Shown: piece by piece, positions 35,213 through 37,677 of the stretch
How positions within the stretch are numbered: position 1 is the stretch's first letter
How the letters are laid out: every line of letters starts with the position of its first letter
NCBI GenBank assembly: GCA_017640665.1
Contig: JAEPQE010000001.1
Location: 1,195,262 to 1,259,261 of the forward strand
Direction of reading: 5' to 3'
DNA from: Balneolaceae bacterium
GTDB taxonomy: Bacteria > Bacteroidota > Rhodothermia > Balneolales > Balneolaceae
DNA: 64,000 bases
Position numbers and translations under genes: made by a program
The notes under the pieces: model-generated
Databases searched by the model: none
The model's input: only the letters and a program-made list of their open reading frames with translations
What the model was told of the DNA's origin: nothing

Positions 35213-35518
35213 TTAGTTTTCCGGTTTTATTTTGTATACAGTCTCTCCGGGTTTACGCATTCCATACTCTTCGCGGGCAATTTTCTCCAAAAGAGCAGGA
35301 TCTTTTTCCAGTAATTCCGTCTTTTCCTTCAATTCTTCTGATTTTACCGCTAATTCCTCGGTACGCAACTCTAACTCTTGTTTCCGATCGTTAAGCTCCC
35401 ATCTTGTCTTCAGGCTATACACATCAATAAAAGAAAACCAAACTAGGACAAATGCAGTTAAAAGCATGGCTAGAAAAGATTTATTCCAACGAAGGGGATT
35501 GAATAGATCCGAACTCAT
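35213..35518 (-). CDS. FtsB/DivIC-family septum formation protein
   Basis: A 101-residue bitopic protein with one membrane helix (about 15-33) followed by a Leu/Glu-rich coiled coil (about 40-75) and the family ending EKIAREEYGMRKPGETVYKI. It acts in the divisome with FtsL- and FtsQ-type partners. Length is typical. It sits 45 bases upstream of the ROK gene on the same strand and is divergent from the nuclease gene. Confidence 0.9.
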   Translation of the reverse strand: MSSDLFNPLRWNKSFLAMLLTAFVLVWFSFIDVYSLKTRWELNDRKQELELRTEELAVKSEELKEKTELLEKDPALLEKIAREEYGMRKPGETVYKIKPEN

Positions 35519-35601: not shown

Positions 35602-37518
35602 ATGATTCGTAAAATATTTCTTCTTTTTGGATTGATCTCGGTAGCATTTCTACGCGAAGGCATGGCACAAAACTCTGGCGAAGAGTGGATTAAGGTATAC
35701 TTTAATATGCCTGCTGGAACTGAATTTTCTGAAGGAAATCATGAATGGGATTTAATAGGTACGCTTGAATCCTTGATCGATTCTGCCAAAACCAGTGTAG
35801 ATTTAAATATTTATGATTTAGAGCATCCAAGGGTAGCTTATGCTTTGGTTCGTGCCAAAGAACGGGGAGTACGAATTCGAATCGTTACGGACAACCACAA
35901 TAGGGATGACAGCAGAGAAGTAGATGCAGAAATGTGGAAGGTTTTGGGATCAGCAGGAATAATATCTATTGATGATGACGGAGACGTTTACTGGGAGACC
36001 GGCAATATCGAAGACAATAATCTAGTGAACGCCGGAGCGGATATGCATAATAAATTTGCGGTCATTGATTACCTCTCCCCTTCAAAAAATGATGATATTG
36101 TATGGACAGGCTCAACGAATCTGACGTACACTGGTGCCTATAATACCAACAACGTGGTAGTGATTAAAGATGATGAAGTTGCTCAGGTATATATTGAGGA
36201 GTTCAACCAAATGTGGGGAAGTGAAGGAAGTATGCCAGATCCTTCCCAATCGCTGTTTCATAAAGACAAAAGAGATGTAAGTAAGCATATATTCGATGTA
36301 AATGGCACAAAGATCGAAATTTATTTTGCCCCAATTAATCGTGATAAGAGTAAGCCAAGCATTAGTGATCGGCTTGTTAATTTGATAAAAGAAGAAGCGC
36401 AGACCGATATCAAATTTCAGGCATTTTCGATTACTCCAAACATTCCATTAAGTAAGGCAATGTGGGAGGCATCTTCTACAGGAGAAATAAAGCTAGAAGG
36501 GGTGATTGACCCGGCGTTTTATAGTCGTTATCGAAATGCAGGCGATATCTGGGGTTCGCCGGAGGCAAGGCTCTCAAATCGAATGATTTTGCCCGCAAAG
36601 GAGACACGTAAACTGCATCATAAGGTTATGTTAATTGATGCAGAAAACCCTGACCCTGATGATGTAGCAGTGGTAGTAACCGGGTCGTACAACTTTTCGA
36701 ACAATGCGGAATTCAATAACGACGAAAATATTTTGATCATCTATTCAGATGAAATAGCAGAACAATATGCAGCAGATTTTTCAGGTGCTCTATTAAGAGC
36801 CAAAGAAGAAATGGAAGCCCCGGCTCCACCTGTAGATCAAAATAAATGGTACTCAATATACGCGATCAGAGATGGGGGCTTTTTTGAAATTGAAATCCTG
36901 CCAGGGTTCGGATACCCTGTTCGTTTACTTGGGGTAGATGTCCCTTCCATTTTTGCAGGAGAAGACTCTTCCGAGTACTTCTCAGGTCCGGCTGCCGAGT
37001 ACCTCCGAAATCTGGTTGAAGGAAGAAAAGTAAAGGTTAAGGGTGCCGGAAAAGAAGCTCCGGAGTCATGGTATGGTGCATTTCGTGCCTATGTTGAGGT
37101 GGACTACGATGGAAATTCTTTACCGCTAAATCAAACGATGCTCAAAAACGGATATGGGGTTTATTCCAGGTATTACGCCCAGCACCCTGATTCTGTCGCG
37201 GCGTTTCAGTCCTATCAATCTGCCGCACAGGAAGCTAAAGAAGGAATGTGGAGATATCCGGATAAGGTAGGAACAATAGTCCCACGACTAAAAGAAGCTG
37301 GTAAAGGTGATGTTGCCGAGGTTGTATATCCCATCAACATAAATACAGCAGATCAGGCTACACTCCAGTTGCTTCCTGGAATAGGTGAAGCATATGCTAA
37401 AAGAATCATAGAATACCGTGAGCAAAACGGTGGCTTTAAATCCATCAACGAACTTATGAAGATTCGTGGAATCGGTGAAAAAAGGCTGCAACGACTTCGC
37501 CCGGTTGTGACTATTTAA
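35602..37518 (+). CDS. Secreted PLD-family nuclease with SNase and HhH domains
   Basis: A 638-residue exported protein: signal peptide (about 1-22, ending GMAQ), two phospholipase D-type domains with complete HKD motifs (H149 in MHNKFAVID and H339 in LHHKVMLID), a staphylococcal-nuclease-like domain (about 410-550, with VRLLGVDVPS and a WRYP ending) and a C-terminal helix-hairpin-helix DNA-binding pair (about 572-638, ININTADQATLQLLPGIGE). The order resembles a combination of PLD nuclease, SNase and ComEA-like domains. A role in degrading or taking up extracellular DNA is inferred. The SNase domain has diverged, so its activity is uncertain. Confidence 0.85.
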   Translation: MIRKIFLLFGLISVAFLREGMAQNSGEEWIKVYFNMPAGTEFSEGNHEWDLIGTLESLIDSAKTSVDLNIYDLEHPRVAYALVRAKERGVRIRIVTDNHNRDDSREVDAEMWKVLGSAGIISIDDDGDVYWETGNIEDNNLVNAGADMHNKFAVIDYLSPSKNDDIVWTGSTNLTYTGAYNTNNVVVIKDDEVAQVYIEEFNQMWGSEGSMPDPSQSLFHKDKRDVSKHIFDVNGTKIEIYFAPINRDKSKPSISDRLVNLIKEEAQTDIKFQAFSITPNIPLSKAMWEASSTGEIKLEGVIDPAFYSRYRNAGDIWGSPEARLSNRMILPAKETRKLHHKVMLIDAENPDPDDVAVVVTGSYNFSNNAEFNNDENILIIYSDEIAEQYAADFSGALLRAKEEMEAPAPPVDQNKWYSIYAIRDGGFFEIEILPGFGYPVRLLGVDVPSIFAGEDSSEYFSGPAAEYLRNLVEGRKVKVKGAGKEAPESWYGAFRAYVEVDYDGNSLPLNQTMLKNGYGVYSRYYAQHPDSVAAFQSYQSAAQEAKEGMWRYPDKVGTIVPRLKEAGKGDVAEVVYPININTADQATLQLLPGIGEAYAKRIIEYREQNGGFKSINELMKIRGIGEKRLQRLRPVVTI

Positions 37519-37519
37519 A

Positions 37520-37554
37520 AAGAAAACCCCGTCCGAGGTCAATCGAACGGGGTT
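37520..37554 (-). terminator. Terminator after tRNA-Lys (minus strand)
   Basis: AACCCCGTCCGA (37525-37536) pairs with TCGAACGGGGTT (37543-37554) with one mismatch and a 6-base loop. On the minus strand the stem is followed by TTTTCTTTTT, so it terminates the tRNA-Lys transcript; there is no T-run on the plus strand. Confidence 0.75.
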
Positions 37555-37604
37555 GGTCAAGAGAGAGTCAATATGAACTCTTTAAGGGGATATATAAATT
37601 TGTG

Positions 37605-37677
37605 TGATCCGGGAGGGACTCGAACCCTCGACCCACGGCTTAAAAGGCAGTTGCTCTACCAACTGAGCTACCGGATC
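37605..37677 (-). tRNA. tRNA-Lys (anticodon UUU)
   Basis: A 73-base cloverleaf on the minus strand. Acceptor GATCCGG pairs fully with CCGGATC, discriminator A. The anticodon loop CTTTTAA gives anticodon UUU. The T arm is GAGGG-TTCGAGT-CCCTC. The anticodon stem ACTGC/GCCGT has one T-C mismatch (positions 29 and 41). CCA is not encoded. Confidence 0.95.

Follow-up and report, generated by a model that had tools for sequence, protein, structure and literature searches.

In the 64,000-nucleotide stretch of Balneolaceae DNA analysed here (the window), one gene joins two phospholipase D (PLD)-like domains, a staphylococcal nuclease (SNase)-like domain and a ComEA-type helix-hairpin-helix (HhH) domain in a single chain. 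We favour, with a probability of about 0.68, the reading that the product is an exported PLD-type nuclease whose catalytically dead SNase domain, an OB fold, acts with the HhH domain to hold nucleic acid. The fusion is a real, modest and lineage-specific combination of domains that is ordinary in its parts. Apparently, a nuclease fold has come to serve as an accessory domain beside a different nuclease, in an exported enzyme limited to one lineage. If confirmed, the twin-HKD nucleases would gain a bacterial member that has DNA-binding arms within its own chain.

The open reading frame (35602-37518, + strand, ATG start) encodes a protein of 638 residues, whose domains and folds are supported by both sequence and structure models (Table 1). 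Pfam places PLDc_2 in two stretches (E 2.3e-37), SNase at E 9.4e-12 (45.8 bits, above the cut-off of 21) and HHH_3 at residues 578-636 (E 4.1e-22), and all three are found in each of the 13 sequences of alignment A1 (E ≤0.01). The full-length model has a mean pLDDT of 78.2 and a pTM of 0.74. Conservation was read from the query and 32 loci which, after removal of six identical copies, gave 27 distinct sequences, the query included; L001-L005 and L019, being the query itself or other PLD-family places in the same genome, had been excluded beforehand. The earlier note had described two complete HKD domains, an SNase-like domain and a ComEA-type HhH in one exported chain, and each of these elements is borne out, export as a prediction. 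The N-terminus is hydrophobic and ends AQN, as read by eye; most aligned orthologue rows, with start codons chosen by script, also show hydrophobic N-termini, and one orthologue (L035) has a LASC stretch resembling a lipobox. The protein thus appears to be exported, with a predicted periplasmic or secreted location. A T9SS sorting tail was looked for in Pfam at E up to 1, with no match to Por_Secre_tail or CHU_C; the chain terminates in the HhH domain.

Table 1. Features of the fusion gene and its immediate surroundings, in window positions
Feature	Positions	Strand	Basis
Signal-peptide-like N-terminus, residues 1-23	35602..35670	+	By eye; pLDDT <50 at residues 6-26
PLD-like domain 1, residues 57-205; HKD1 H149-K151-D156, GSxN S171/N173	35770..36216	+	Pfam PLDc_2 (best stretch); invariant 27/27
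PLD-like domain 2, residues ~230-400 (Pfam stretch ~265-394); HKD2 H339-K341-D346, GSxN S362/N364, E375	36289..36801	+	Second PLDc_2 stretch; invariant 27/27
SNase-fold (OB) domain, residues ~412-553, probably catalytically dead	36835..37260	+	Pfam SNase 440-551; domain model; residue loss
ComEA-type (HhH)2 domain, residues 576-638; GIG at 593-595 and 623-625	37327..37515	+	Pfam HHH_3; glycine conservation; pI 9.9
DivIC/FtsB-type septum protein gene, divergent neighbour (context, outside the system)	35213..35518	-	Pfam DivIC; adjoins in 13/13 orthologous loci
tRNA-Lys, downstream, opposite strand (context)	37604..37677	-	

A nuclease fold with a degraded active site

Because the matches listed in the whole-chain fold search were PLD-type folds and polyphosphate kinase, the SNase part was modelled alone (pLDDT 85.3). 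The resulting model superimposes on staphylococcal nuclease with Z 17.1 over 132 aligned residues (rmsd 2.5-2.9). On the strength of this model, the SNase fold of residues 412-553 is hardly in doubt, and the objection that the region might be a different fold fails. The likeness to staphylococcal nuclease lies in this fold; in the fusion, on the other hand, the domain sits inside a PLD chain and has lost key residues.

We compared D21, R35, D40, T41, E43 and R87, which we take to be the active-site residues of staphylococcal nuclease; R35 to E43 were placed by alignment, R87 via the YG motif in that alignment and D21 in the multiple alignment, via its DG motif. Equivalents of D21, T41 and E43 are kept in none of the 27 distinct sequences, while R35 is kept in 17, D40 in 12 and R87 in nine, and no row retains more than three of the six. 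By comparison, all six are present in the alignment of a control, a free 216-residue SNase (L086) from a genome of the same order. Given this pattern of loss across every row, set against the complete control, the SNase domain is very probably catalytically dead and not a second nuclease. The description of the chain as holding two nuclease folds thus stands as regards the folds, and fails, very probably, as regards two working nucleases. That the chain is a double nuclease with an active SNase domain would be in keeping with the clear fold, the Pfam match and the retention of R35 and D40 in the query protein itself, yet the uniform absence of D21, T41 and E43 makes this very improbable indeed. 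Since R35, D40 and R87 are partly kept, the domain could conceivably still bind some phosphate or metal.

Of the four domains, the SNase part also shows the lowest conservation, with a mean top-residue frequency of 0.61 against 0.71-0.74. Constraint is nevertheless seen, as six of 142 positions are invariant. In the two of five pairs without saturated dS in this region, dN/dS is 0.05 and 0.16, values by which the region is under purifying selection. The residues are lost, yet the sequence is constrained, so the domain seems to be retained for a non-catalytic purpose. Precedent for dead SNase domains (Tudor-SN) was looked for in open-licence papers and not found. SNase hits of this kind should, as a caution, not be counted as active nucleases.

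The PLD pair and its probable substrate

Both HxKx4D...GSxN motifs are complete, and each is invariant at H, K, D, S and N throughout the conservation set. The full-length model is close to PLD3 (Z 30.2, 330 aligned, rmsd 3.4) and PLD4 (Z 29.6), at 16% identity. Its top Foldseek match, however, is phospholipase D 7e0m (Z 29.4), which ties with PLD3 by Z, as does F13, and phosphatidylserine synthases reach Z 27.3. The fold thus does not discriminate between the possible substrates. At the sequence level, the solved structures matched by the PLD part are the endonuclease 1byr (E 1.1e-8), a 'mitochondrial cardiolipin hydrolase' of the MitoPLD/Zucchini type, a name that is itself ambiguous as to substrate, and NucT. 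The family models of NCBIfam do not claim the protein: the best NucT model gives 34.8 bits against a cut-off of 297, and DISARM DrmC 37.4 bits against 133. With an overall pI of 4.6, the PLD pair is acidic, a point against the nuclease reading.

The first alternative to be weighed is a phospholipase or other lipid-active PLD, such as a transphosphatidylase, that merely carries nucleic-acid-binding modules. According to passages of PMC10783504, PLD nucleases typically have one HKD per chain, whereas lipid-active PLDs have both. The twin-HKD layout, typical of the lipid-active group and together with the 7e0m and F13 ties an argument for this alternative, thus counts against a nuclease. PLD3 and PLD4, however, are exceptions, and these show that the layout can belong to a nuclease. 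What tips the balance towards a nuclease is the sequence-level similarity to 1byr and NucT and the ComEA-type tail; the SNase fold in the same chain also speaks against a lipid enzyme. We thus regard a lipid enzyme as unlikely and infer nuclease activity for the PLD pair.

PLD chemistry cleaves phosphodiesters through a phosphohistidine intermediate step. In the nuclease that we favour, both HKD halves of the chain would combine into a single active site, cutting phosphodiester bonds by way of such a step. The C-terminal (HhH)2 domain would bind DNA, and the SNase domain, having lost the majority of the residues that bind metal and phosphate, would act as a binding or spacing module. The likely task of the enzyme would be to break down DNA outside the cell or in the periplasm, as a source of nucleotides or phosphate, or to clear such DNA. 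The DNA-processing reading given earlier to the chain is in this sense supported by its predicted domains.

Known systems resemble the fusion only in part. The single-HKD endonucleases NucT and Nuc share the HKD motif and sequence similarity within the PLD domains, and NucT is periplasmic; unlike the fusion, they have one HKD per chain, act as dimers and have neither SNase nor HhH domain. According to PMC5714352, PLD enzymes are thought to work via a phosphohistidine step on the histidine, and NucT is implicated in purine salvage and in transformation, with a modest effect on the latter. PLD3 and PLD4, twin-HKD 5' exonucleases, share the twin-HKD fold; on the other hand, they are mammalian and lysosomal and lack the SNase and HhH domains. 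PLD3, moreover, which acts on ssDNA as a 5' exonuclease, has HKE as its second motif (both from passages of PMC10783504), whereas both motifs of the fusion are HKD. A more specific proposal, which we put forward as a long shot, is that the dead SNase domain serves as an OB-fold DNA clamp. Together with the ComEA-type tail, it would complete a self-contained, exported enzyme able to remove one strand of the DNA that it has captured or to move along that DNA. Such an enzyme would correspond, in bacteria, to the PLD3-type exonucleases, but with an arm of its own for holding the substrate.

The HhH tail, the locus and DNA uptake

The HhH region is basic, and its glycines are well conserved (G595, G623 and G625 in 27/27, G593 in 23/27). 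Its matches among solved structures are 9yi2 (endonuclease/exonuclease/phosphatase family domain-containing protein 1) and two chains of ComE operon protein 1, with 8dss, a ComE operon protein 1, at 5.6e-12. The likeness to ComEA is confined to the (HhH)2 domain, the remainder of the chain not resembling it, and NCBIfam comE gives 71.1 bits against a cut-off of 152.35. The genome encodes, elsewhere, a separate ComEA-like protein of 164 residues with an N-terminal hydrophobic stretch, as well as a ComEC-type match.

These elements bear on the second alternative, a competence entry nuclease that would nick or convert incoming periplasmic DNA and pass it to ComEA/ComEC. There is a precedent in Helicobacter pylori NucT, for which such processing of incoming DNA has been suggested, with a modest effect on transformation (PMC5714352); NucM, the subject of PMC6384898, is an entry nuclease of another fold. 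A ComEA-type HhH in the chain and the two matches elsewhere in the genome would agree with such a role. The ComEC-type match says little, however, since 10 of 14 control genomes also have one, and a relative without a fusion match (G005) nevertheless retains a ComEA-like protein of 181 residues with a hydrophobic N-terminal stretch. Furthermore, no competence gene is found among the conserved neighbours across the 13 orthologous loci. The neighbours at the locus are RibD-type, lumazine-binding, LptD, ROK, DivIC, thioredoxin-like, HIT, dehydroquinase, polysaccharide synthesis and NYN genes. LptD is called in 12 of the 13 loci (in the other, L012, the end of the contig has probably truncated it), ROK in 11, and the downstream thioredoxin-like, HIT and dehydroquinase genes in nine. 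An operon with competence or nutrient-uptake genes was considered and dropped, none being seen among the neighbours.

The gene can also be lost. In G007, a remnant beside LptD and DivIC (L083, G007:C3:212334-212621) preserves pieces of residues 1-104 followed directly by 579-638, with frame breaks. Because the conserved locus is without competence genes and the gene has decayed in at least one relative, we consider scavenging or clearing of DNA likelier than a dedicated uptake role. The suggestion of a DNA-uptake nuclease, though possible, is thus not supported by the neighbours, by the separate ComEA-like protein and ComEC-type match or by the 74 of 128 genomes of the order without a fusion match, and we hold an entry nuclease to be improbable.

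The syntenic locus across orthologues favours vertical inheritance. An origin from a mobile element or phage was considered and rejected, on the grounds of this synteny and of plasmid and phage matches that are partial. By tblastn, no plasmid or phage record covers 80% of the query; among the 15 of 34 plasmid records listed the matches are to the PLD pair, and among the 10 of 15 phage records listed to the C-terminal HhH region.

A few minor features of the locus were also recorded. In four orthologous loci (L009, L010, L011 and L015), an opposite-strand open reading frame of 249-261 residues lies just downstream, touching or overlapping the orthologue's end; it has no match in the compared part of the window. 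A 12-pair hairpin lies directly 3' of the stop codon, at 37525-37554, where the scan reports a terminator-like site on the - strand. A promoter scan found four sites, against a mean of 5.6 in shuffled sequence, and is uninformative.

Distribution and relatives with other modules

An order-wide search finds a fusion match at E ≤ 1e-100 in 54 of 128 genomes (43 of 83 among those of good quality); some of the 74 genomes without a match at this threshold are incomplete. All but one of the 54 matches run to the end of the model, one of these (G431) with a single internal stop, and the remaining one (G057) meets a contig end and stops at position 547 of the model. In a phylum sample, with each genome scored on at most three candidates, 44 of 394 genomes match at 1e-40. 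The 32 within the order match over the whole length, and the 12 outside match in the PLD pair only, within positions 16-416; no sampled phylum genome outside the order carries the full architecture. A scan of one genome per species, which reaches close relatives only and thus covers other phyla poorly, gave 13 loci. Twelve are labelled Balneolaceae, Balneola, Gracilimonas or Fodinibius, and the 13th (M1805) shares its exact protein sequence with G035, which belongs to this order. By these searches, the domain combination is lineage-specific and, in the sampled genomes, confined to this bacterial order. As to whether the architecture is already common and characterised, it is common inside one order; searches of the open-licence literature, on the other hand, found no characterised case of the PLD-SNase-HhH combination (none of PMC3710099, PMC6384898 and PMC12419801 deals with the fusion).

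SNase is scarce in the order. There are 57 matches in 56 of 124 genomes, and 53 lie within frames of 576-739 residues, the size of the fusion. Those outside such frames are in G046 (216 residues), G457 (203), G449 (109) and, as one of two in that genome, G442 (304).

We extracted eleven further proteins that have a PLD pair like that of the fusion, some perhaps N-terminally short, and scanned ten of them (L077 was left out). The Por_Secre_tail sorting domain is above cut-off in eight, DUF5689 in three, and Pur_ac_phosph_N matches eight at E up to 0.01, three of them above cut-off; one of the ten has neither. The Vibrio coralliilyticus plasmid protein WP_021456969.1 (L078 2929-4380) is like the fusion in joining an HHH_3 match at its C-terminus to a PLD pair, although at 26.2 bits that match falls slightly short of the cut-off (27); it differs in its length of 483 residues, the absence of an SNase match and only ~29% identity over the PLD pair. 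It is annotated merely as phospholipase D-like. An exported PLD pair with exchangeable accessory modules seems, from these predicted architectures, to be a general theme, with the SNase-HhH tail as this order's version of it.

A possible source of that tail is a protein of the kind found in L087 (G442:C79), 291 residues of SNase-HhH without PLD domains; in the one draft genome that has it, the frame is still open where the 3.2 kb contig ends, and this contig may be a contaminant. As a query it found nothing at E 1e-15 in 296 phylum genomes, in a search without a positive control, and three plasmid records in the HhH part only. By eye, it has DGD and VDCPE motifs that are active-site-like.
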